Shown here: in pieces, positions 1,073 through 31,961 of the stretch | Numbering within the stretch: position 1 is the first letter of the stretch | How the letters are laid out: each line of letters starts with the position of its first letter | Assembly: GCA_002084525.1 (NCBI GenBank) | Contig: NBLH01000024.1 | Coordinates: 1-32,098 of the forward strand | Source: Bacteroidetes bacterium 4572_117 | GTDB taxonomy: Bacteria; Bacteroidota; Bacteroidia; Bacteroidales; NBLH01 | Length of the DNA: 32,098 bases | Direction of reading: 5' to 3' | Notes under the pieces: generated by a model | Seen by the model: only the letters and a program-made list of their open reading frames with translations | Databases searched by the model: none | What the model was told of the DNA's origin: nothing | Translations under genes and position numbers: made by a program

Positions 1073-1181
1073 TTTTAAAATTAGATAGACATGAAACAAG
1101 CATGATTAAACATTCAAGGCAATGATTATTTTACATCATGCGGTATCATGTGGCAAACAAAAACATTTAAAAAATAAACAC

Positions 1182-1586
1182 ATGAAAATATTAAAATTTC
1201 AATTTATAGTGCTTATACTTTTTTTGTCGACAACAATTTTTGCTCAATCACTTGATTGCCCATCAAACTTAAAAATGCGACACCCTTCTCCGCCTTTTGG
1301 ATTTAATGACTTATCTAAAAGTGCTCAGTGCCTTACTGGTAAGAAATATGAGTTTCTGCTGCCTTTGACAAAGGGCAAAGACTATCGTATTTCTTTTTTT
1401 GCAAGCCCCGTTTTTAATAATAATATCCAATTTAGGATTATTGATGTAAATTCAGGGAAAAAAGTTTTTGATTTACCAGGAGAATCTGAGGCCAACAATA
1501 AGGGTGAATGTGTTTTAAAAGCGTATTTTGACAATAAATTAAACAAATTGGTACACCCATATTTTGATTTTTTTCCTCATTTATAA
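1182..1586 (+). CDS. Small secreted hypothetical protein
   Basis: ATG at 1182 gives MKILKFQFIVLILFLSTTIFAQS, a typical Sec signal peptide ending in AQ. Confidence 0.5.
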   Translation: MKILKFQFIVLILFLSTTIFAQSLDCPSNLKMRHPSPPFGFNDLSKSAQCLTGKKYEFLLPLTKGKDYRISFFASPVFNNNIQFRIIDVNSGKKVFDLPGESEANNKGECVLKAYFDNKLNKLVHPYFDFFPHL

Positions 1587-2003: not shown

Positions 2004-3104
2004 CTAAGACATTTTAACAAATTTATTGAAAATAGCAAATGCTACCAAACTAGCAGTGTTTCTTGTTTCAGTTTTAGCTAATAAATTTGCCCTATGGTTA
2101 TCAACTGTACGGCTGCTTATGAATAGGTTTTCAGCTATTTCGCTATTTGTGAACCCTTGGCAAATTAGTTTTAGTATTTGTAATTCTCTTTTAGTTAATT
2201 TAATTCTGTTTTTAATTCTATCTGATTCGCTGTTGCTATCAAATGACATTAACTGCCTTACATTTATAATTTGTTCGGCAATATCTTCTTTTTCTAAAGA
2301 AATAAGGTATTTAATAACTTCATCTAGTTCTACCGCACCTACTCCAGCCTGTTTTTGTTTTGTGTGAACGTTATTGCTTGTTATGTCAACAATACTCCCA
2401 ATAATTGATTTTTTATTGTCAAACATTATTGATTTACCAAATAATTCAAGAAATAAAGCTTTTTTATTTCCACTAATGATAGATACTTTCAGCTGAATTG
2501 AATCATGAATACCTTTCAAACACATGCACAATTCATTAATTATACTTTCTTTATCCCCAAGAAAAATATCCTTGAGTTTTGTCCTGTTTAATTCAAATTT
2601 TGAGTAACCTATAATTTGTAAAAGTTTATTATTTACCAATATAAATTTGTTATCTTGATATATGTAGACTCCAACCAAAGGATTGTTTATAAGTGCCTTA
2701 AATTTGGTTTCGCCTGATAATCTGATTTTTTGGTTTTTTTCGAGCCTTTTAACCACGGTCAATACCAGCTCATCAAGTTCAAAAGGTTTAGTCAGATAAT
2801 CGTCCACCCCCATTCTAAGCCCTGTCCTAAAATCTTCGGGTTGTGCTCTTGCAGTTAAAAAAATAAATGGTATACCAGATGTTGCCGGTATTTGCTCAAG
2901 TGACCTAAATACCTCATATCCATCAAGTTTAGGCATTTCAATATCGCAAATTATTAAATCGGGCGTATGTTGTAATGCCATTTGAATTCCTTCGGCACCA
3001 TCTTTTGCAGCCAAAGTAATATATCCTTCCATTGATAAAAATTCTACAACTTCTTCGAGTAAGGGTTCGAAGTCGTCAATAATTAGTATTCTAGGTTTTT
3101 GCAT
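2004..3104 (-). CDS. Response regulator: receiver - PAS - LuxR/NarL-type HTH
   Basis: Receiver with intact ILIIDD, IICDIEMP and DDYLTKP; PAS-like middle; C-terminal LTKRELQILKLICQGFTNSEIAENLFISSRTVDNHRANLLAKT HTH. Confidence 0.88.
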   Translation of the reverse strand: MQKPRILIIDDFEPLLEEVVEFLSMEGYITLAAKDGAEGIQMALQHTPDLIICDIEMPKLDGYEVFRSLEQIPATSGIPFIFLTARAQPEDFRTGLRMGVDDYLTKPFELDELVLTVVKRLEKNQKIRLSGETKFKALINNPLVGVYIYQDNKFILVNNKLLQIIGYSKFELNRTKLKDIFLGDKESIINELCMCLKGIHDSIQLKVSIISGNKKALFLELFGKSIMFDNKKSIIGSIVDITSNNVHTKQKQAGVGAVELDEVIKYLISLEKEDIAEQIINVRQLMSFDSNSESDRIKNRIKLTKRELQILKLICQGFTNSEIAENLFISSRTVDNHRANLLAKTETRNTASLVAFAIFNKFVKMS

Positions 3105-3110
3105 GCAAAT

Positions 3111-4190
3111 TTATTTTAAAGTAAATATAACCGATGCCGAAAAAAATTCATTTACAACGCTTTTAATTATCAGTTTTGCACCAAACAATTTTGCAATTAA
3201 GTCAATAATAGCAAGTCCCAAGCCCAAGCCCTGTTGTTCTTTTTCTGCTCGATCAAACTGTATAAATCCCCCAATATCAGCAATTTGTTTCTCTGAAATT
3301 CCAGATCCGTTATTGTATACAGTTAATATGTGTTTTTTATTTTTTGTTTCTGAATGTATTTTAATTTTATTACCTGTAATTGAAAATTTAATAGCATTAT
3401 CCAGTAATTCGTCAATAATTTTCGCAAAATAATCTTTTTCTATTTTAATGTTTTCATCCTTGATATCCAATTCGATATCTTTTTGTCTATAGGCCTTGTT
3501 GATTTTAGCTTTTACAACTTTTTGAATAATTTTTTCTGTGCAAATATACTGAACATTTTGTTTTTCCTCTATTTTTGTTGGATCACTTACCAAAAGGCTT
3601 AAGTTAGAAAAAATTGTATAGTTTTCAACAAATCGTTGTAAGCGTTTACCGCTTTCATATATGTAACCAGCAATTTCGGTCAATTCTTCTCTGGATATGT
3701 CGGGGATTTTATCTCTTAAATAATCAGAAAAGCCTAAAATGCCATTTAGCGGCGTTTTAAGCTCATGAGGCAAAAAATGGCTGATATTGGCACGTAAAGC
3801 CTCAATTTTATCTTGATACCTCCCTACTTTTTCTAATTTATTTTTAACAGATATTATTAAATTATCCGGACTAAGTGGTTTTGTAAGGTAATCATCCGCC
3901 CCAAGATTCATCCCATACCTTATATCCTTGGTCTCTGCCTTTGCCGAAAGAAAAATTAATGGAATATCTTCGGTTGCGGGAAATTTTTTTAATTCTTTAA
4001 ACATCTGATAACCATCCATGACTGGCATTAATATGTCTGAAATAATTAAATCTGGTAAATTATTCTTAGCACTATTAATTCCTTCAAGCCCATTAATTGC
4101 TTCAAACACTTCGTAATTTTCCATTCTCAGAATATCACATACCTCTTCTTTTACTTCTGCAGTATCTTCAACTACTAATATTTTTTTCAT
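3111..4190 (-). CDS. Receiver - histidine kinase hybrid protein
   Basis: Receiver ILVVED / IISDILMP / DDYLTKP; H-box FLPHELKTPLNGILGF; N-box ELLDNAIKFS; G2 GLGLGLAII. Confidence 0.88.
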   Translation of the reverse strand: MKKILVVEDTAEVKEEVCDILRMENYEVFEAINGLEGINSAKNNLPDLIISDILMPVMDGYQMFKELKKFPATEDIPLIFLSAKAETKDIRYGMNLGADDYLTKPLSPDNLIISVKNKLEKVGRYQDKIEALRANISHFLPHELKTPLNGILGFSDYLRDKIPDISREELTEIAGYIYESGKRLQRFVENYTIFSNLSLLVSDPTKIEEKQNVQYICTEKIIQKVVKAKINKAYRQKDIELDIKDENIKIEKDYFAKIIDELLDNAIKFSITGNKIKIHSETKNKKHILTVYNNGSGISEKQIADIGGFIQFDRAEKEQQGLGLGLAIIDLIAKLFGAKLIIKSVVNEFFSASVIFTLK

Positions 4191-4264
4191 AATTTTTCCT
4201 TTTGTAAATATACAAAAAAATTATTGATCTCATAATTTTACTGTATCCAAACTTAATTCTCCCT

Positions 4265-6214
4265 CTATTGCCTAGTGTTATTCAGTGGTAATTTTACAAT
4301 AAACTTTGTACCTTTTCCTAAATTTGTTTCCATTAATATTTCGCCATTATGCAGTTTAATATTCCGTTTTACAATTGATAAACCCAGACCCGTACCTTGT
4401 ATTGTTTCTACATTTTCACCTCTAAAAAAATCATCGTAAATTAATGTAATTTCATTCTTCTTGATCCCTATTCCCTTATCAATAATTTCAACTACGGTGA
4501 CTCCATTTGTACATTGGCATACAACATTAACCTGTATTGCCTTAGGTGAGAATTTTATAGCATTTGTTAACAAATTTGTAAATATATTTTTCCCTCTATC
4601 CGGATCAATAAATATTTCACAATTTTTTTGTTTGCTTGAAACTGAAATAGTATGTGTATTATCTGTAAAATGGCAAACGTCATCAATAATTGGTTTAATA
4701 AAATCAATAAAATTTAGTTTGCGGGGTTTAATTTTTATTTTTATGGTATCTATTTTCTCCACATGTAATATTTCTTCTAAAAGCCGTGTCATATGTTTAA
4801 CCTGATGTTCAATTTTAAGTAGCTTTTGACCTTTTTGTTCTTCACTAAGCTTATTATTATATTTTTTTAAAAACCCTGCTGCAAAGCTTATTGCCGTTAA
4901 AGGTGTGCGGAATTCATGTGATGCCATTGCCACAAAGCGGGATTTTAAAATACCTAATTCCTTTTCTTTTTCTAAAGCCTTTTTCAATTCTTTTGTTCTG
5001 TCATCAACTTTTTTTTCAAGTATAGTTTTATGCCTCTCAATCCTTGTAACATCCTGTGCAACAAGCACTATCCCATTTATGTTTCCGTAATAATTGTTTC
5101 TGGTAGTAGTGCTAATAAGCATTATTAGCTGTTCACCTTTATTGTTTGATAAATTACATTTGTAGTTTGTCAAACAATGTCCCGAAAAGGAATCATTAAT
5201 AGCCCTACCAATTTCGTCTTTGTATTTTTCCGGTATAAGTAGTTCAATAAAATTTTTCCCTATAACTTCTCTTTTTGTATATAAAAATAATTCATCTGAG
5301 GCCATATTCCATTCATTAATTTTGCCAGATTTATCTATACCTATTACCGGTACATTTACTGTATCAATAAGGTTTCGTAGCTCCATGGCAATATGTAAAA
5401 GTTTTAGTTCTGCTTTTTTCTGATGGGTTATATTTTCAACCGTACCTTCAAATACCACATCCATATTTTCATTTACTGATTTTTTTGCTGATTCACGTAT
5501 AAATATTTGTCTTTTATTTTTTGTAAACCATTTGCCCTCTAAGCCCTTTACATAACCATCCCTATCTAAATTTGAAATATATCTCTCCCTTGTGGCTTTA
5601 TCAACATATAAATCGACAGCTTGAATAGAGTTGCTTAATTCTTTTAACGATGAATAACCAAGCATTTTATATAATGCCGGGTTTGCTGATAATATTTCGC
5701 CTGTGGCACTAGTTCGATAAATTCCTACAAGCGAGTTTTCAAATAATTCATGATAATTTTTTTCTGATTTTTTAACAATAGCCTCTTTTTTTTGTAAGTT
5801 TTTCCCTAGATTTTTTTCTTCAAAAACTTTTTCTATAACAAATTGCAACTTTCTAAAATCAATAGGTGTAACAAAAAAGCCATCAATTCCAATATCAATA
5901 GCATCTAACAAGTTTTGCCTATTGAAATGGTCTCCCGTTATATAAACTTTTGACCCATTTTTCTTATCAATTTTTTCAATCATTTCTAACCCTCCCATTA
6001 CAGGCATTTCAAGGCCTGTTATTATAATATCGGGTTTATGTTCAAAAAATAAGTCGAGCCCTTCTCTTCCATTTTCTGCAATATACAAATGGTTTATTTT
6101 TTTTTGTAAAAATGTTTTAACAGACAAACTTATTGAATTGTCATTAGCTACATAAAGTACTGAAACTTCAAAACTATTTTTTTGTATACGCTGTTCTGTG
6201 TTATTCTGATTCAT
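4265..6214 (-). CDS. PAS-domain histidine kinase with degenerate N-terminal receiver
   Basis: H-box MASHEFRTPLTAI, N-box LLTNAIKFSP and GTGLGLSIV are intact; two PAS-like segments; receiver-like N-terminus lacks the Asp and Lys sites. Confidence 0.88.
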   Translation of the reverse strand: MNQNNTEQRIQKNSFEVSVLYVANDNSISLSVKTFLQKKINHLYIAENGREGLDLFFEHKPDIIITGLEMPVMGGLEMIEKIDKKNGSKVYITGDHFNRQNLLDAIDIGIDGFFVTPIDFRKLQFVIEKVFEEKNLGKNLQKKEAIVKKSEKNYHELFENSLVGIYRTSATGEILSANPALYKMLGYSSLKELSNSIQAVDLYVDKATRERYISNLDRDGYVKGLEGKWFTKNKRQIFIRESAKKSVNENMDVVFEGTVENITHQKKAELKLLHIAMELRNLIDTVNVPVIGIDKSGKINEWNMASDELFLYTKREVIGKNFIELLIPEKYKDEIGRAINDSFSGHCLTNYKCNLSNNKGEQLIMLISTTTRNNYYGNINGIVLVAQDVTRIERHKTILEKKVDDRTKELKKALEKEKELGILKSRFVAMASHEFRTPLTAISFAAGFLKKYNNKLSEEQKGQKLLKIEHQVKHMTRLLEEILHVEKIDTIKIKIKPRKLNFIDFIKPIIDDVCHFTDNTHTISVSSKQKNCEIFIDPDRGKNIFTNLLTNAIKFSPKAIQVNVVCQCTNGVTVVEIIDKGIGIKKNEITLIYDDFFRGENVETIQGTGLGLSIVKRNIKLHNGEILMETNLGKGTKFIVKLPLNNTRQ

Positions 6215-7646: not shown

Positions 7647-7934
7647 ATGAAAGAATTACAACCGGTTAATCAAAATGTATTACTTGACATTACTGAAGAT
7701 AAAGCAGAACAAACAACAGCAGCAGGAATTATTATTCCAGATTCAGCAAAAGAAAAAAACAAGTTTGCTAAAGTAATAGCAATTAGTAGTATTGAAAATG
7801 CAGAAATTTCAGTTGGTGATAATGTTCTTTATAAAGAATTTTCAGGAACAGAAATTAAATTTGAAAACAAAGAGTACTTACTAATTCCATACGATGGGAT
7901 TATGGCTAAAATTGCTGAAACTGACAATATTTAA
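7647..7934 (+). CDS. groES: GroES-family co-chaperonin-like protein (10 kDa)
   Basis: LQPVNQNVLLDITEDKAEQTTAAGIIIPDSAKEK...VGDNVLYKEFSGTEIKFENKEYLLIPYDGIMAKI has Cpn10 layout. No groEL follows. Confidence 0.75.
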   Translation: MKELQPVNQNVLLDITEDKAEQTTAAGIIIPDSAKEKNKFAKVIAISSIENAEISVGDNVLYKEFSGTEIKFENKEYLLIPYDGIMAKIAETDNI

Positions 7935-7946
7935 TTTTTTGTTATA

Positions 7947-8111
7947 ATTAATGAGCCTAGTCTAAAAAGAGTGAAAAAGGACAATCTTAAAATCAGAATT
8001 TACCCCTAACCTTAAAGGGTGTCCTGATTTTCAGCGACTTTGCCCTTTAGGGTTGGGGTAATAAGTTGCTAAAAATCTTGTGTTGAGGCTTTTTAGACTG
8101 GACTCATTAAT
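7947..8111. mobile_element. MITE-like long inverted-repeat element
   Basis: 23-bp ends ATTAATGAGCCTAGTCTAAAAAG (7947..7969) / CTTTTTAGACTGGACTCATTAAT (8089..8111), 2 mismatches; inner inverted repeat TTACCCCTAACCTTAAAGGG (8000..8019) / CCCTTTAGGGTTGGGGTAA (8043..8061). Confidence 0.6.
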
Positions 8112-8273
8112 ATTTTCTATCTAGCTTTGTTTTGCAGGCCATTACTTTAAACTCACTGGTGTGCGATGTAAAACAGATGCTAATGAAAAAACTATTGCTG
8201 GTTGTAGGGATACTAAGGAACTGTATCGAAATAAATTGACTATTTAAGCTTATTCTCTTGCCCTTGTAACTTC

Positions 8274-8318
8274 CTCGAAAAAGTCCTCAAATAGTACACT
8301 ATTAGAGAATTTTTCGAG
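8274..8318. repeat. Long near-perfect hairpin upstream of metF
   Basis: CTCGAAAAA..CTCAAATAGT-AC-ACTATTAGAG..TTTTTCGAG. Confidence 0.6.
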
Positions 8319-8437
8319 TTGTTAAAGAACAAAATAATTTCGCTTTAATTAGTCAATTTATTAATTAATTTTGGCTGGGTATTTATTGTTACTTAGGCTA
8401 ATTTTTTTAATTAAAACCGACACATAAAAGACAAATT

Positions 8438-9400
8438 ATGCCAAAACGAGTAGTTGACCACATAATGGAATCAAAGAAAACTTTGTTTTCATTTGAAATA
8501 TTGCCTCCATTAAAAGGTAAGGATATTAATTTGATTTACGATGTGATAGATCCTTTAATGGAATTTAAACCGAAGTACTTAAACATAACATATCATAGAG
8601 AAGAGGTTGTATATAAGAGACATAAGTCAGGCCTACTTGAACGGAAAACAGTACATAAGCGACCCGGGACAGTTGCAATTGCTGCTGCTATTAAATATAA
8701 ATATCGCAATGTAAATGTAGTACCTCATATAATTTGTGGGGGCTTTACAAAAGAAGAGACAGAAAATGCTTTAATTGACCTGCACTTTTTGGGGATAAGG
8801 AATTTATTGGTTTTAAGGGGCGATGCTTTATCTGCAGATAAAGATTTTAAACCGGAAATTGATGGACATTCCAATGCTTTGGATTTGGTAGAGCAAATCG
8901 GAAACCTGAACAAGGGCAGATATTTAGATGAAGAATTGGAAAATACAACCAAAATGGATTTTTCTTATGGGATTGCCGGATACCCTGAAAAACATTTTGA
9001 AGCACCCAATATTCAATCTGACTTATATTATTTGAAAAAGAAAGTAGAAGCAGGGGCAGAATATATTGTAACACAGATGTTTTATGATAATCAAAAATAT
9101 TTTGATTTTGTTGATCTTTGCCGTAAAAATGGAATTAATGTGCCAATTATGCCCGGGATAAAACCAATTTCTATTGCACGCCACCTTAACATATTACCTT
9201 CAATTTTCAATATTGATATACCTGAAGCGCTCGCAATTGAAGTACGAAAATGCAAAACAAATAAAGATGTGAGGCAAGTTGGTGTTGAATGGGCTATTGA
9301 GCAGTCAAAAGAGCTGATTAAACACAATGTGCCATCAGTACATTATTATACCATGGGTAAAGCAGATAACATATTCAATATAGCTAAAGCGGTGTTTTAG
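8438..9400 (+). CDS. metF: Methylenetetrahydrofolate reductase
   Basis: FSFEILPPLKGKDI, VVPHIICGGFTKEE, LVLRGDAL, AGYPEKHFEAPN, AGAEYIVTQMFYDNQKYFDF, MPGIKPIS. Confidence 0.92.
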   Translation: MPKRVVDHIMESKKTLFSFEILPPLKGKDINLIYDVIDPLMEFKPKYLNITYHREEVVYKRHKSGLLERKTVHKRPGTVAIAAAIKYKYRNVNVVPHIICGGFTKEETENALIDLHFLGIRNLLVLRGDALSADKDFKPEIDGHSNALDLVEQIGNLNKGRYLDEELENTTKMDFSYGIAGYPEKHFEAPNIQSDLYYLKKKVEAGAEYIVTQMFYDNQKYFDFVDLCRKNGINVPIMPGIKPISIARHLNILPSIFNIDIPEALAIEVRKCKTNKDVRQVGVEWAIEQSKELIKHNVPSVHYYTMGKADNIFNIAKAVF

Positions 9401-18718: not shown

Positions 18719-19089
18719 TAATTTTTCGAGTTTACCTTTGCAAATTTACACGTATAGGTGATAGGCTGTAGTTAATAGGATAATAGCATAAGATATTCCC
18801 TAAAATTGATTTATCAATACCGCGACTGCATGAGTCGTTTTAGTTAAAAACTTTTATTTTACCATCATAAATGTGTAGTACAGAGCTTGCCGAGGTAAAT
18901 GGGTTATAATTTTTGAGAAGTCAGATAAAGCAATTTTTATAGTTTTTCTTGATAAGTTTAGTATAATTCGGACATGATAAAACCATAGTAAATATTTTTA
19001 GATATACAGAAAATCTTGTAAAACGTCATTAATTTACCTAAATTAGTCCGTTTTTTAGTATCGGTTAAGCAAGATTGAGGGTTAAAATA

Positions 19090-22000
19090 ATGAGCAAAGA
19101 AGACACAAATACATCAACAATTGGTGACATCCTTGTAGTTGAAGATACATTTTCGCATCGTGAACTTATATCTGAAATATTAGGAAGTGAAGGTTATACG
19201 GTAAGACAGGCGGTTGATAGCGAATCTGCCCTACAAATAATTAAGGCAAAACAACCTGATTTGGTACTTCTGGATATTAATTTGCCTGACGTTGACGGAA
19301 TAAGTTTTTGCAGCCACCTAAAATCGAATTCTGAAACAAAAGATTTCCCTGTCATTTTCATAAGCGCACAAACCGATACAAATATGAAAGTAAAAGCTTT
19401 AGAAGCTGGTGGTGTAGATTATGTTACAAAACCAATAAAATCTTCAGAGCTTCTTGCTAGGATAACCACTCACCTAAACATATACAAATTGCAACTGCAA
19501 TTAAAAACAGCGCAGCAAACTTTAGAAAAATCAGAGGCAAAATATGTTGACTTATACAACAATGCCCCCGATATGTTTTTATCTATTAACCCGGAATCGT
19601 TCAAGATAATTGATTGCAATAAAACTCTCTTAACCGATTTGGGTTATTCAAGGGATGAATTAATAGGAAAAAGTGTTTTTGATTTTTACACACTCGAAAC
19701 AGCCAAATTTGCAAAAGAAAAATTATTCCCCCAACTTAAAAAAACTGGAAGTATCGTTGGCGAAGAACTTCAGGTAAAAAAAAAAAATGGAACCATAATA
19801 GATGTCCTTCTAAATAGTTCTGCGGTATATGATGAAGATAATAAAATTAGATATAGCCGTTCTGTTTGGCGTGAAATTACTAAACGTAAAAAGGCAGAAA
19901 AAAGCTTAGCTCAAACTTCAGAAATAATTAATCTGAGTTCTATGGTTGTTTTTTTATGGGAAAACAAAGACAACTGGTCAGTTAAGCATGTTAGCGATAA
20001 TGTAAGTAAAATATTTGGATATACACACAAAGATTTTTCAAGTGATAAAATTTATTATTCCGATATAATTCACCCAGATGATATAAAAAGGGTGAAAGCT
20101 GAAGTAGTTGAAGCAAGCAACAACCCACAGATAAATAAATTTGAACAAAGCCCATACAGGATAATTACAAAAAATGGCGAAATTAAATGGATTGAGGATA
20201 AAACTGTAATTATCAGAGATAATGTTGGGCAAATAACACATTACCAAGGTATTATCCAAGACATTACCGATAGGATAAAAAAAGAAGAAACAATAGGGAA
20301 ATTATCTACAGCCATTAATCAAAGCCCTATAACAATTGTAATAACGGATACACAGGGAAATATTGAATTTGTGAACCCCAAATTTACTGAAACCTCAGGC
20401 TACACATTAAAAGAGGCCATTGGTAAAAACCCTAGAATGCTAAAATCCGGTATTCAAACCGACGATGTTTATAAAAACCTATGGGGAACTGTTACAAAAG
20501 GAGGCGTTTGGCGAGGCGAGTTCAAAAATAAAAGAAAAGACGGAACCCTATATTACGAAAATGCAGCTATTGGGCCCGTAAAAAATCAGAAAGGCGAAAT
20601 AACTCATTTTATTGCATTAAAGGAGGATATTACCGAACAGAAAGAAATGCAACAAAAATTAAAACTGAAATCTCAACAAATTGAAAATATTTTTAATAAT
20701 GTAAAAGATGTTATTTACTCTTTAGATGTAGAAAAAGAAGGTGTCTTGCAAATCGCACCATCATGTAAAGATATTTTTGGTTATTCGCAAAATGAATTTT
20801 ACAAAAACCCTGGTTTATTGGTGGATATTATCCATCCTGATGACCAAAAATTTGCAAAACTTTCTAAAGAGAATTTTACTAATAATGATGTTTTAAATTT
20901 GAAATATAGGATAATTAAGCCAGATAAACAAATTAGGTGGGTTAACAGTAAAATAACACCAAGGTTTAATAGTTCTGGAAATTTAACCAGGCTCGATGCT
21001 TCAGTTTCTGATATAACAGCTAGCGAAGTGCTTCAAACATCACTTAAGCAAGCTTTTAATTTCAATAACAAAATAATTAAAACATCAGGGATAGGGGTAC
21101 TTATGTACAAACAAAGCGGGCAATGCCTTTCTGCCAACAATAATATCGTAAAAATTATTAACACTACAAAGGAGCAACTGCTAGCATTAAATTTTAAAGA
21201 AGTTCCTGCATGGAAAGAATCTGGTTTGATAAAAGATGCCAAGAAATGCCTTGAAACAAATAATGAAATAAAAAATGTTATACAAATAAAAAATGAAGAT
21301 ACAGGCGAAATATGGCTTGACACACATTTTAGTACATACGAGGTAAGCAATGAGCCCCATTTTTTATTATTGGTTAGGGATATTAGCAAAATTAAGTTTG
21401 CAGAAAAAGAAATTCAGCAAAAAGCAATAGAACTACGAAATTTGATACAAACAGTTAGCACCCCTATTTTTAATATGGATATTGAGGGGAAAATTCAAGG
21501 GTGGAATAAAGCTGCAAAAAAGATAACGGGGTATTTAAAAGCAGAAGTCGAAAATAAACATTTTGCAAATATACTTTTTGTTGGTGATGAAAAACAAACT
21601 GTACATAACATAATAAAAGATGCAATAAATGGGCATGAAATCTCTAACCGCGAATTAATGATTAAAACAAAACGTGGCAAGCTTATTAAAATAATGCTTA
21701 ACATAAACGTACACAGAGATATTAATGGCAAAGTTATAGGTGTAATATGTACAGGACAAGATATTACTGAATTGGTAAACTACAGAAAAAAACTTGAAAA
21801 GAAAGTTAAAAAAAGAACAGAAAAATTAAAAAAGGCATTAAAAGCAGAACAAGAGCTTAGCGAGCTGAAATCCAGGTTTGTATCCATGGCTTCGCATGAA
21901 TTTAGGACACCATTGGCAGCTATTGGTTTTGCAGCTGGTTTTGTGAAAAAATATTGGAACAGGTTAGATGAGGAAAAACGGGATAAAAAACTAATTAAAA

Positions 22001-22536
22001 TTGAAAACCAAGTTTACCGTATGACAAATATGCTTGATGATGTACTGACCATTGGAAAATCAGAAGCAGGCCAACTAAAATATAAGCCTGAAATTATCGG
22101 TTTTGAGGAGTTTATTAATCCTTTGATGGAAGAGGTTGGCAACGTAACAAATAACACACATGAAATAAGGTTTCAGAATATTTGCAAACTTGAAAAAATA
22201 TTTATTGATGAAAAATTAGCAAGGAATATTTATATCAACCTACTTTCAAATGCAATTAAATTCTCACCTGAAAAAAAATATATCGAATTTACATGCAACA
22301 GCAAAAATGATTTGCTGGTTTTTACTATTAGGGATTTTGGAATTGGGATCAATAAAAAAGATCTATCAGATATTTTTACACCATTTCATAGAGGTGAAAA
22401 TGTTGAAACTATTCAAGGTACAGGTTTGGGATTGGCCATTGTAAAGGAATCAGTTGAACTAATGAAAGGCAAAATTGAAGTTGAAAGCAAACCAGGTGAA
22501 GGAACAACTTTTACAGTAACTTTACCAAAAACATAA
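19090..22536 (+). CDS. Receiver - multiple PAS - histidine kinase
   Basis: Receiver DILVVEDT / LVLLDINLPDVDG / VDYVTKP intact; about five PAS segments; H-box MASHEFRTPLAAI; N-box LLSNAIKFSP; GTGLGLAIV. ATG at 19090 preferred over TTG at 19075. Confidence 0.9.
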   Translation: MSKEDTNTSTIGDILVVEDTFSHRELISEILGSEGYTVRQAVDSESALQIIKAKQPDLVLLDINLPDVDGISFCSHLKSNSETKDFPVIFISAQTDTNMKVKALEAGGVDYVTKPIKSSELLARITTHLNIYKLQLQLKTAQQTLEKSEAKYVDLYNNAPDMFLSINPESFKIIDCNKTLLTDLGYSRDELIGKSVFDFYTLETAKFAKEKLFPQLKKTGSIVGEELQVKKKNGTIIDVLLNSSAVYDEDNKIRYSRSVWREITKRKKAEKSLAQTSEIINLSSMVVFLWENKDNWSVKHVSDNVSKIFGYTHKDFSSDKIYYSDIIHPDDIKRVKAEVVEASNNPQINKFEQSPYRIITKNGEIKWIEDKTVIIRDNVGQITHYQGIIQDITDRIKKEETIGKLSTAINQSPITIVITDTQGNIEFVNPKFTETSGYTLKEAIGKNPRMLKSGIQTDDVYKNLWGTVTKGGVWRGEFKNKRKDGTLYYENAAIGPVKNQKGEITHFIALKEDITEQKEMQQKLKLKSQQIENIFNNVKDVIYSLDVEKEGVLQIAPSCKDIFGYSQNEFYKNPGLLVDIIHPDDQKFAKLSKENFTNNDVLNLKYRIIKPDKQIRWVNSKITPRFNSSGNLTRLDASVSDITASEVLQTSLKQAFNFNNKIIKTSGIGVLMYKQSGQCLSANNNIVKIINTTKEQLLALNFKEVPAWKESGLIKDAKKCLETNNEIKNVIQIKNEDTGEIWLDTHFSTYEVSNEPHFLLLVRDISKIKFAEKEIQQKAIELRNLIQTVSTPIFNMDIEGKIQGWNKAAKKITGYLKAEVENKHFANILFVGDEKQTVHNIIKDAINGHEISNRELMIKTKRGKLIKIMLNINVHRDINGKVIGVICTGQDITELVNYRKKLEKKVKKRTEKLKKALKAEQELSELKSRFVSMASHEFRTPLAAIGFAAGFVKKYWNRLDEEKRDKKLIKIENQVYRMTNMLDDVLTIGKSEAGQLKYKPEIIGFEEFINPLMEEVGNVTNNTHEIRFQNICKLEKIFIDEKLARNIYINLLSNAIKFSPEKKYIEFTCNSKNDLLVFTIRDFGIGINKKDLSDIFTPFHRGENVETIQGTGLGLAIVKESVELMKGKIEVESKPGEGTTFTVTLPKT

Positions 22537-22797: not shown

Positions 22798-22919
22798 AGA
22801 CTATGTATTCAATTATTGTACCGACAACTCAGTATAGGTGTTCTCGTTGGACACAAAAACCTCATAACGATAAAATATTTAAATAGTTGTGCGGGAAATA
22901 TGATACAAAAAGTAATGAA

Positions 22920-23978
22920 ATGAAAAAAATATTAGTTGTAGAAGATACTCAGGTCATTCGTGAGGAGATATGTGACATTCTTCAAATGGAAAATTTTGAG
23001 GTTTCAATGGCCTCAAATGGATATGAGGGGCTGATACAGACAAAAAACATGAAACCCGATTTAATTATATCAGATATAATGATGCCTGTACTTGATGGTT
23101 ATCAGTTTGTTAGGGAGATTAAGAAATCGCCTAACACAGAAAACATCCCAATTATTTTTTTGTCGGCAAAAGCTCAAAAAACAGATATTCGCAAAGGCAT
23201 GAACCGTGGTGTTGAAGATTATATCACAAAACCGATACATCCTACCGACTTGCTTACAGCTGTTAATATGAGTTTAGAAAAACAGTCAAAATTAGATAAG
23301 AAAATTGAAGAGTTAAGAATTAAACCAATAAAATTTTTGCCAAAAGAGCTTATTAAATCACTTAATATTATAGTAGGTTTTTCTCAAAACATTAAAATGG
23401 CAAAAACGACTATTCCTGATGATGAAATAGCATTACTAATTAATAGTATCTACGATAATGGGGAGAAAATAAATAGCATGATTAATGATTATTTAATTTA
23501 TCTAAACCTGATTACAAAAATTTCTAATCCAAACAATAAAAATATTAGTTTAAAATCATATTCTGATGTAGATTGCTTATATTTTATTGAAAGCGCAATA
23601 TTATCAAGTGCAAATGAAAAAGGAAGGAGGAGTGATGTAATGTTTAATGCGTTAGGGGTAAAAATGAAATTTAATGAATTTTATTTCAAAAAAATAATTG
23701 AAGAGATGCTGAGCTGCGTAATTTTATGCACATTTCCTGGCGATGAGATAAAGGTTTGGTCAAAAAATGAAAAAAACTATTATCTGTTGTTTGTTGATGG
23801 GGCAGGACAGCCACCTTCAAGAAAAAAAGTAGATAATACCAGCGTGGAACTGGTGAATGATACTTTTAATCGCTCTATTGAAATACTTAAATTAATCTCG
23901 AAAGTATATTCAGGTAAATTTGAATACAATAAAAATAATAAAGAAAACTTAAGTTTTACATATTACTTTGAATTATAG
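22920..23978 (+). CDS. Receiver - degenerate histidine kinase (pseudokinase)
   Basis: Intact receiver (ILVVED, IISDIMMP, EDYITKP); kinase region collinear with 3111..4190 but H-box reads FLPKELIKSLNIIVGF and N, G1, G2 boxes are not recognisable. ATG at 22920 preferred. Confidence 0.8.
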   Translation: MKKILVVEDTQVIREEICDILQMENFEVSMASNGYEGLIQTKNMKPDLIISDIMMPVLDGYQFVREIKKSPNTENIPIIFLSAKAQKTDIRKGMNRGVEDYITKPIHPTDLLTAVNMSLEKQSKLDKKIEELRIKPIKFLPKELIKSLNIIVGFSQNIKMAKTTIPDDEIALLINSIYDNGEKINSMINDYLIYLNLITKISNPNNKNISLKSYSDVDCLYFIESAILSSANEKGRRSDVMFNALGVKMKFNEFYFKKIIEEMLSCVILCTFPGDEIKVWSKNEKNYYLLFVDGAGQPPSRKKVDNTSVELVNDTFNRSIEILKLISKVYSGKFEYNKNNKENLSFTYYFEL

Positions 23979-23998
23979 TTTTACCATCTAAATAATAC

Positions 23999-24142
23999 TT
24001 GTCCATAATGTCGGCAAATAAGCATCAATGGTGCGATTATTATTAACACAACATCAATCATTGTGCTGTAAATGAGCGAATTACTATTGCGCCAATAGTT
24101 CAGGATAAAAATATTTTCAAAAGACATTGACTTTATGGACAA
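23999..24142. repeat. Inverted-repeat-bounded intergenic element
   Basis: TTGTCCATAA (23999..24008) / TTATGGACAA (24133..24142), perfect 10 bp. Confidence 0.4.
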
Positions 24143-24161
24143 ACTCGAAATAGTCATTAAT

Positions 24162-24177
24162 TAGGAAAAAACACCTA
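24162..24177. promoter_or_regulatory. Palindromic operator (distal)
   Basis: TAGGAAAAAACACCTA; proximal TAGGTTTTATAACCCT at 24199. Confidence 0.5.
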
Positions 24178-24236
24178 ATAAAAAAACATCTAACAATATA
24201 GGTTTTATAACCCTAAATATTAAACAACCTACAGGC

Positions 24237-24244
24237 TAATTTTG
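24237..24244 (+). promoter_or_regulatory. Predicted -7 element
   Basis: TAATTTTG, 38 nt after proximal site start and 75 nt after distal site start. Confidence 0.45.
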
Positions 24245-24418
24245 CGATATAGATATTAATAATAACAAATATGAACTTATTGGAATAAATAAAAATGATT
24301 ATGGTTATTATTTGCAAATGACAAAAAAATCTAACAAAAAAGTGTTGAATAGCAGTATTTTGTTAATTTCTGTTATTGAATTAACGATATAGCTATTTAA
24401 TGGGGAACTATTCAAAGA

Positions 24419-24531
24419 TAAGTACCCAGACAAAATTAATTGGATATTTACTTTTACGCAACTTGCATATTGTAAGATATTTGCACCAGTGCGTAAGCAA
24501 CATTAAATAGCACCTAGTGCTTAATAAACTT
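24419..24531 (+). repeat. Dispersed intergenic repeat, copy 2
   Basis: Near-identical to 6471..6605; a few substitutions, 3-nt insertion, and lacks a ~23-nt segment. Confidence 0.85.
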
Positions 24532-24576
24532 TGATAGCAGCTTTTTTGTTTTAGTATCTTTTAACTTGTTAAATAA

Positions 24577-24984
24577 ATGAAAAAAGTACTTATAATAATA
24601 GGTCAAAGACAGTTTCGTAACGAATTAGTGTCTTTTATATCATTTGAAGGTTATGAAGTAATTTCAGCAAAGGATGGTGTCGAAGGTTTACAAAAGGCAC
24701 TTCAATTTAAACCTGATATAATTGTTTCTAATATAAAAATGTCCCGTTTAAATGGATATGATTTGTTACGCACTTTAAAACAAATAAAGATTACACGTGA
24801 AATACCTTTTATATTTTTAAGCGCAAAAAATCAAGCCAGCGATGTGCGAAATGCCCTTTTGCTTGGTGCCGATGATTATCTTATTAAGCCATTAAACCCT
24901 AGCTGCATTGTTCATTCAATACGTCTTGTCCTTATAAAACAAAAAAAACGTACCCAACAATTTTCAATAGAAGAGTTTAATTAA
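24577..24984 (+). CDS. Stand-alone degenerate receiver (pseudo-receiver)
   Basis: Collinear with the receiver of 2004..3104 (ALQFKPDIIVSNIKMSRLNGYDLLRTLKQ...IPFIFLSAK...GADDYLIKP), but Asp site is Asn and acidic pocket reads IIIGQ. Confidence 0.82.
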   Translation: MKKVLIIIGQRQFRNELVSFISFEGYEVISAKDGVEGLQKALQFKPDIIVSNIKMSRLNGYDLLRTLKQIKITREIPFIFLSAKNQASDVRNALLLGADDYLIKPLNPSCIVHSIRLVLIKQKKRTQQFSIEEFN

Positions 24985-30490: not shown

Positions 30491-30880
30491 ATGGGAAAAA
30501 ATATTTTGGTAGTGGATGATACACTTATGATGAGAAAACTGATTAAAAGGTTTTTAGGACAGTTTTATGATATAAAATTAGAAGAAAATGGTCTTGAGGC
30601 TATACTAAGCATGCAAAATGGATATATACCGGATTTAATCATTTCGGATATCCAAATGCCTAAGCTTGACGGGTTTGGATTTATTGAACAGGTGAAAGCA
30701 ACGGGGTTTTTAAAAGGCATACCTGTAATTATGCTTTCGAGTATTGATGACAGCCAGGTGAGGCTTAAATTTTTAAAACTTGGTGTTACCGATTATTTAA
30801 TAAAGCCTTTTAACCCCGAAGAACTTGTGATAAAAGTAAACAATATTTTTGAAAGGATGCAGGAACAAGTTTCTAGCTAA
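30491..30880 (+). CDS. CheY-like single-domain response regulator
   Basis: NILVVDDT, LIISDIQMPKLDG, IPVIMLSS, DYLIKPF; all catalytic residues present. Confidence 0.9.
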   Translation: MGKNILVVDDTLMMRKLIKRFLGQFYDIKLEENGLEAILSMQNGYIPDLIISDIQMPKLDGFGFIEQVKATGFLKGIPVIMLSSIDDSQVRLKFLKLGVTDYLIKPFNPEELVIKVNNIFERMQEQVSS

Positions 30881-31961
30881 ATACCTCATAAATAGTTTTT
30901 TATTGACATTAAACAATGTGTTGGGAGCAATTTATAAATCAGTAATAACATGGAGTGGGATAGATTATTTTGAACATTTCCATAAATGTAATACCCCATC
31001 AAGCTGCATTTGTTTTTTGCTTCTTGAAAAACATGATATAAGCATTATTAAACTGGCATTAAAAAAAGGTATTGACGATGTATATATTGTCCCTTTTAGT
31101 GCTGATGCAGTATATAAAAGGGTTATGTTTCTTTCAGAAATAAAAACGAATGGCACAACAAAAAAATCAAAAAAATCAAAGAAATCAAAGAAAAAAACAG
31201 AAAATAAATACAAACTTCAAACATCAAAAAGAATTTTTGATATAGTTGTTGCTTCTTCTGTGTTATTGATATTAAGTCCTTTGCTATTAGTTGTTTTGTT
31301 GCTTATCAGGCTTGAATCAAAAGGCAATGTTTTTTATGTATCGAAAAGGGTAGGCAGCGGGTATAAAATATTTGATTTTTATAAGCTGCGGTCAATGCAT
31401 CAAGGTGCCGATACAAAACTGAAGGATATGAAAACTAGCAATCAATATGCCTTAGAAGTTAAAGAAGAGACTACTGACGAAGAATGCCCTGAATGTAAAA
31501 GGCTTGGCCACTTATGTTCACCAATATTATACATTGATGGACATGAGGTATGCGAAAATCATTATCTTAAAATGAAGAAAAGCAGCAACGAGTCAACATT
31601 TGTTAAGTTTTCAAATAATCCAAGAATAACAAAAATTGGGAAATTCATTCGTAACACAAGTATTGATGAGCTTCCTCAATTAATAAATGTATTAAAAGGC
31701 GATATGTCAATTGTTGGGAATCGCCCTTTACCTTTATATGAAGCTGAGTTATTGACCACTGATGATTGGAGCGAACGATTTTTAGCACCAGCCGGGCTTA
31801 CAGGGCTGTGGCAGGTTGAAAAACGCGGGAGATCAGGAAGCATGTCGGCAGAAGAGCGCAAACAGCTCGATAACACATATGCCGGAAAATTTTCATTGCT
31901 TTATGACATGAAACTAATTTTCCAAACAATACCCGCGCTTTTTCAATCTGATTCAGTATAA
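30849..31961 (+). CDS. Exopolysaccharide-type sugar transferase (undecaprenyl-phosphate sugar phosphotransferase family) with degenerate receiver-like N-terminus
   Basis: KRIFDIVVASSVLLILSPLLLVVLLLIRLESKGNVFYVSKRVG, FYKLRSM, IGKFIRNTSIDELPQLINVLKGDMSIVGNRPLP, APAGLTGLWQV. Start overlaps the upstream regulator by 32 nt; exact start uncertain. Confidence 0.88.
   Translation: MKGCRNKFLAKYLINSFLLTLNNVLGAIYKSVITWSGIDYFEHFHKCNTPSSCICFLLLEKHDISIIKLALKKGIDDVYIVPFSADAVYKRVMFLSEIKTNGTTKKSKKSKKSKKKTENKYKLQTSKRIFDIVVASSVLLILSPLLLVVLLLIRLESKGNVFYVSKRVGSGYKIFDFYKLRSMHQGADTKLKDMKTSNQYALEVKEETTDEECPECKRLGHLCSPILYIDGHEVCENHYLKMKKSSNESTFVKFSNNPRITKIGKFIRNTSIDELPQLINVLKGDMSIVGNRPLPLYEAELLTTDDWSERFLAPAGLTGLWQVEKRGRSGSMSAEERKQLDNTYAGKFSLLYDMKLIFQTIPALFQSDSV

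Follow-up and report, generated by a model that had tools for sequence, protein, structure and literature searches.

A Rec-HK homologue with an intact receiver and a degenerate, apparently non-catalytic kinase half in a Bacteroidales draft genome

What does a receiver do when the kinase half fused to it has lost its catalytic residues? This question is raised by a gene at 22920..23978 (plus strand) of a 32,098-nucleotide contig of Bacteroidetes bacterium 4572_117; the whole of this stretch is called the window here, and its source genome is a fragmented draft, 59.7% complete. The gene encodes a protein of 352 aa (MKKILVVEDT...FLPKELIKSLNIIVGF...IIEEMLSCVILCT...), which consists of a receiver (REC, aa 1-120), a linker helix, a degenerate DHp domain (aa ~137-203) and a degenerate CA domain (aa ~204-352). 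This REC-DHp-CA order is the architecture of Leptospira LvrB. An earlier note, made from the sequence alone, had reported an open frame of 363 aa. The long frame is there, but this length counts from a TTG at 22887, and the start shared by the family, the ATG at 22920, gives 352 aa. Pfam detected the receiver (PF00072, E 6e-29) but no HATPase_c, and HisKA stayed below the threshold (13.4 bits vs a cut-off of 26.9). No PAS match was found, and the N-terminus is occupied by the receiver instead. The protein and the 3111-4190 product of the same window align over their full lengths (39% identity, E 6e-76). The two genes are thus collinear as had been claimed, with the refinement that 3111..4190 sits on the minus strand. 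A Bacteroidota-type promoter consensus was not found directly upstream of 22920, and a scan of the genome collection with the protein as query returned no confirmed relative.

Alignment with the paralogue and a motif table revealed what the kinase half has lost. Lys142 (AAA, 23343..23345) is located where the phospho-accepting His is expected, and the paralogue has His at this site, which confirms the substitution noticed earlier. The N box is lost (IIEEMLSCVILCT vs IIDELLDNAIKFS, 23697..23735). In total, the protein has lost its H, N, G1, F and G2 boxes as well as the Thr at H+4; that G1, F and G2 disappeared along with the N box refines the earlier note. We gathered a REC-DHp-CA family set of about 40 members from the order and class and defined as conserved those positions that are at least 80% conserved among its 28 intact members. 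The tail keeps 5/10 of these positions in DHp and 3/18 in CA. Identity of the kinase part to the nearest intact congener copy is 29% for the window protein vs 54% for its intact paralogue, and the two paralogues share 31% identity in DHp and 38% in the linker helix. Judged from these motifs, with Lys142, the lost boxes and no HATPase_c match, the kinase half is dead.

The receiver half is different. Its domain (22929..23267) retains the acidic pair ED, the phospho-Asp D52, Ser82 and Lys104, as well as 28/30 of the family-conserved positions, in agreement with the earlier statement that the receiver is intact. Receiver identity with the intact congener copy is 66% for the window protein and 70% for the window's intact paralogue. 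In the receiver tree, the terminal branch of the window protein is 0.22, and those of intact relatives are 0.25 and 0.18; synonymous sites were saturated in the branch dN/dS analysis of this domain. The receiver diverges no faster than those of active relatives. By these figures, the receiver and the kinase half are under sharply different constraint.

Is the dead tail maintained or decaying? A family HMM built from intact members alone scored the tail at E 2e-25, and 200 shuffles reached about 1e-3 at best. None of the other five frames of the tail region matches this HMM, and these frames are full of stops; a frameshift origin of the tail was therefore rejected. There are no stops or frameshifts in 22920-23978. 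In simulations that let the kinase part decay neutrally until it reached the observed identity, 10-15 stops arose on average and 0/2000 runs remained open, which supports the earlier view that the frame is maintained and not decayed. In a branch codon model fitted with several starts, the tail differed from the background omega (2dlnL 11.2), indicating relaxed constraint, and also from omega = 1 (2dlnL 8.4; 4.0 in a three-taxon version). Because synonymous sites are saturated, these figures are only supporting. They suggest that selection on the tail is relaxed yet still purifying. On the dN/dS check proposed in the earlier note, relaxation is found, and neutrality is disfavoured, although more weakly. 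The stops, frameshifts and neutral pattern of a pseudogene were not seen in 22920-23978, with the same saturation applying to the last of these. In the AlphaFold2 model of the product (mean pLDDT 84), the receiver is followed by a long linker helix, which breaks near Pro136, and then come a DHp hairpin and a CA sheet. Foldseek against the PDB placed LvrB closest, followed by HK853 complexes, and the pseudokinase DivL at rank 23. The DHp-CA fold probably persists in the dead tail, and in these models the tail looks like a genuine protein domain without catalysis.

The gene directly upstream (19075..22536, plus strand) encodes a multi-PAS sensor histidine kinase with intact HisKA and HATPase domains. 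Downstream, 24577..24984 (plus strand) encodes a stand-alone degenerate receiver, which has lost the acidic pocket and the phospho-Asp but kept the Lys; IIGQR and VSNIKM stand in place of the lost motifs. This receiver groups weakly with LuxR-type regulators in the receiver tree. From this it seems that the cassette's output regulator has degenerated too, with 24577-24984 probably being what is left of a truncated REC-PAS-LuxR regulator. An intact cassette of kinase, Rec-HK and REC-PAS-LuxR regulator persists on the same contig at 2004-6214. It comprises, all on the minus strand, a REC-PAS-HisKA-HATPase kinase (4265..6214) upstream of the Rec-HK, the Rec-HK paralogue itself (3111..4190) and a REC-PAS-LuxR response regulator (2004..3104). 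The 3111-4190 product passes Pfam for receiver, HisKA and HATPase_c; its G1 box is not the textbook one: it reads NNGSG, the Asp being replaced by Asn, which holds for about 12/37 family members. Elsewhere in the window, a single-domain receiver (30491-30880) overlaps a gene for a PF02397 sugar (phosphoglycosyl) transferase (30849-31961). This pair is comparable to EpsW-EpsZ, in which the receiver activates a PF02397-like sugar transferase (PMC12802240).

Congeners show what else can follow the same sensor kinase. In G001, an intact Rec-HK and then an intact REC-PAS-LuxR regulator come after the orthologue of 19075-22536 (50% over 896 aa). This Rec-HK carries FLPHELRTPLNGI and, on a second contig, ELLSNAIKF and GLGLGL; the G001 cassette spans the two contigs and was joined by inference. 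In G002 and G006, each orthologue of the kinase precedes a receiver gene without a kinase tail. G003-G005 have no close orthologue of the kinase. Thus, at the four loci behind the orthologous multi-PAS kinase (window, G001, G002 and G006), the receiver is intact in 4/4 and the kinase tail in 1/4. G006 also has a REC-HisKA-HATPase gene in two adjacent frames (L035:7753-8887, minus strand; 8285-8887 and 7753-8268), which from the sequence would be either a frameshift or an assembly error.

G001 contains a second, degenerate REC-DHp gene (L033:4708-5769, minus strand), in which His is replaced by Ser, DHp is truncated, CA is deleted and the receiver is damaged. A lone degenerate receiver comes next after it, in parallel with 22920-24984 of the window. 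The tree pairs the window protein with this degenerate copy (94/95 with 40 rows, 70/82 with 14 rows; both branches are long) and joins the intact copies of the window and of G001 to each other. Gene order would instead put the window protein beside the intact copy of G001, and this pairing was not rejected (p-AU 0.146). Tree and gene order therefore point to different G001 genes as the orthologue of 22920-23978. Had window 1122-1586 been homologous to the gene next to the degenerate cassette of G001, the second cassette copies could have been placed as positional orthologues, but this homology was not supported (E 0.23). The roughly 20-kb inverted spacing of the two cassettes in both genomes was set aside as evidence, since the intervening genes are not shared. 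The earlier note had counted orthologues with intact kinase motifs against its own reading, and by position such a gene exists, namely the intact Rec-HK behind the orthologous kinase of G001. An intact positional counterpart would place the kinase loss in the lineage of the window; it does not make 22920-23978 active.

A second Rec-pseudokinase was found in G037 (L025; L119:6393-7475, minus strand). Like the window protein, it has an intact REC, Lys in place of His, none of the ATP boxes and a predicted fold that persists (mean pLDDT 81), and it also follows a multi-PAS kinase; a NarL/LuxR regulator lies two genes further on. Unlike these shared features, its origin is separate. A single clade of the two pseudokinases was rejected (p-AU 0.0035), so the box-less His-to-Lys end state arose at least twice. 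The family also includes eight Rec-HK homologues without the phospho-His (D, Q, R, E or S there) that keep the N, G1 and G2 boxes. All eight have Glu at H+4, and an intact G397 member adjoins them in the tree. They are found at L050, L052, L023, L065, L067, L070, L071 and L074 (genomes G235, G287, G026, G104, G349, G139, G375 and G312; families f21 and f99). The reverse case is seen at L115 (G026:C130), where the kinase boxes are intact and the fused receiver lacks the phospho-Asp, the acidic pair and the Lys.

The structural mechanism of Rec-controlled kinases has become available only recently, with LvrB (PMC13269768). The upstream kinase LvrA phosphorylates the LvrB receiver, a coiled coil then forms in the linker helix, and CA is freed for autophosphorylation; once autophosphorylated, LvrB phosphorylates LvrC (PMC13269768, PMC5863495). 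The window protein resembles LvrB in its REC-linker helix-DHp-CA order, its similar length, the position of its gene downstream of a sensor kinase and its best structural match, and the window's intact cassette shares the LvrA-LvrB-LvrC order of parts. An acidic pair, a phospho-Asp, Thr/Ser and Lys, as in the LvrB receiver, are all present, and a helical linker, DHp hairpin and CA fold are predicted (AlphaFold2, Foldseek). In contrast to LvrB, which has a phospho-His and autophosphorylates, the window protein has Lys and lacks the N, G1, F and G2 boxes. The first LvrB-type step, receiver phosphorylation, may still be possible in the dead copy, while the second, autophosphorylation, would not be. 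The window protein is also comparable to receivers of the CheY, DivK and Spo0F type, which are intact and as output neither catalyse a reaction nor bind DNA. At the same position, G002 and G006 have exactly such single-domain response regulators, their bare receivers, but the window protein, unlike this type, keeps a translated and predicted-folded tail of about 220 aa.

We lean towards the reading that 22920-23978 encodes a Rec-HK whose catalysis-dead tail and normally constrained receiver make it a non-catalytic, phosphorylation-switched receiver fed by 19075-22536. Gene order suggests that this kinase would phosphorylate Asp52. The adjacent kinase, in addition to the 3111..4190 paralogue, would be the natural partner. 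The tail would no longer relay the signal as phosphate; it could be kept for folding, dimerisation or docking and would be at most a dimerisation or docking module. The relay from kinase through Rec-HK to LuxR regulator would thus be cut at the 22920 locus, with the intact copy remaining at 2004-6214. Read with the fewest assumptions, the sequences would describe a phosphorylated receiver that has no catalytic output and in this resembles the bare receivers of G002 and G006. As a phosphate sink, a role put forward in the earlier note, the protein would draw phosphate from a shared kinase and have no output itself; its receiver residues are intact, and gene order would point to the partner. Against the non-catalytic receiver, the degenerate 24577-24984 receiver fits a general decay of the cassette, tree and gene order disagree over the congener orthologue, and the selection test is weak, with synonymous sites saturated.

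The same degenerate neighbour brings in slow decay, a possible but rather unlikely account in which the copy became redundant after duplication of the cassette, its receiver lingers, and its role-less tail is headed for loss as in G002 and G006. The intact cassette at 2004-6214, the bare receivers of these two congeners and the visibly decaying second copy of G001, with its damaged receiver and missing CA domain, are all consistent with it. It fits poorly with a receiver that evolves no faster than those of active relatives, and with a tail that, at about 29% identity, is open and predicted to be fold-like, although no frame stays open under neutral drift to that level. We consider a DivL-like role improbable, in which the dead DHp-CA would signal by contact after binding another kinase or a phosphorylated regulator. 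DivL of Caulobacter shows that a dead histidine kinase core can read a phosphorylated regulator (PMC5361649). It shares with the window protein the histidine kinase fold (predicted here to persist without catalysis, with DivL among the PDB matches), the replaced phospho-His (Tyr in DivL, Lys here) and the expected lack of kinase activity. However, DivL is a tested DivK~P sensor with PAS sensor domains and no receiver, and its phospho-specific binding needs the PAS domain (PMC5361649); the window protein, known from sequence, has a receiver and no PAS, and its DHp is just 31% identical to that of the paralogue. This low identity, together with that in the linker helix, also argues against mixed dimers with the intact 3111-4190 Rec-HK that would block or tune its kinase. 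The paralogues do share a contig, and the DHp hairpin persists in the AlphaFold2 model, but such a dominant partner, as suggested in the earlier note, seems still more doubtful: a receiver-only role is favoured over it because G002 and G006 keep at this place a receiver without any dimerisation domain. Finally, the draft state of the genome might invite the suspicion that an assembly error or frameshift poses as motif loss, which is highly improbable given the uninterrupted frame, the unlike alternative frames, the in-frame alignment of all secondary-structure elements and the independent G037 case.

Few pseudo-histidine kinases have been characterised, although about 1% of histidine kinases do not have the His (PMC5361649). 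Neither Rec-HKs nor pseudo-histidine kinases are new as such; the new part is a pseudokinase of the Rec-HK type, of which no report was found in the open-licence literature searched. A wider proposal, which we put forward only tentatively, is that Rec-pseudokinases form a recurrent functional output class, in which receiver phosphorylation would switch a non-catalytic DHp-CA, by an LvrB-type linker-helix mechanism, into binding a partner. Such a class is conceivable but doubtful. It would have at least two origins, both with Lys for His and with every box lost, and next to it stands a separate clade in which the His alone is missing. Within a single genus of this family, orthologues of one sensor kinase are followed by an intact Rec-HK, by a dead one and, twice, by a bare receiver. 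With such a set one can test directly how much a kinase tail is worth to its receiver and what remains after catalysis is lost, and 22920-23978 is a useful case of a kinase turning into something else.
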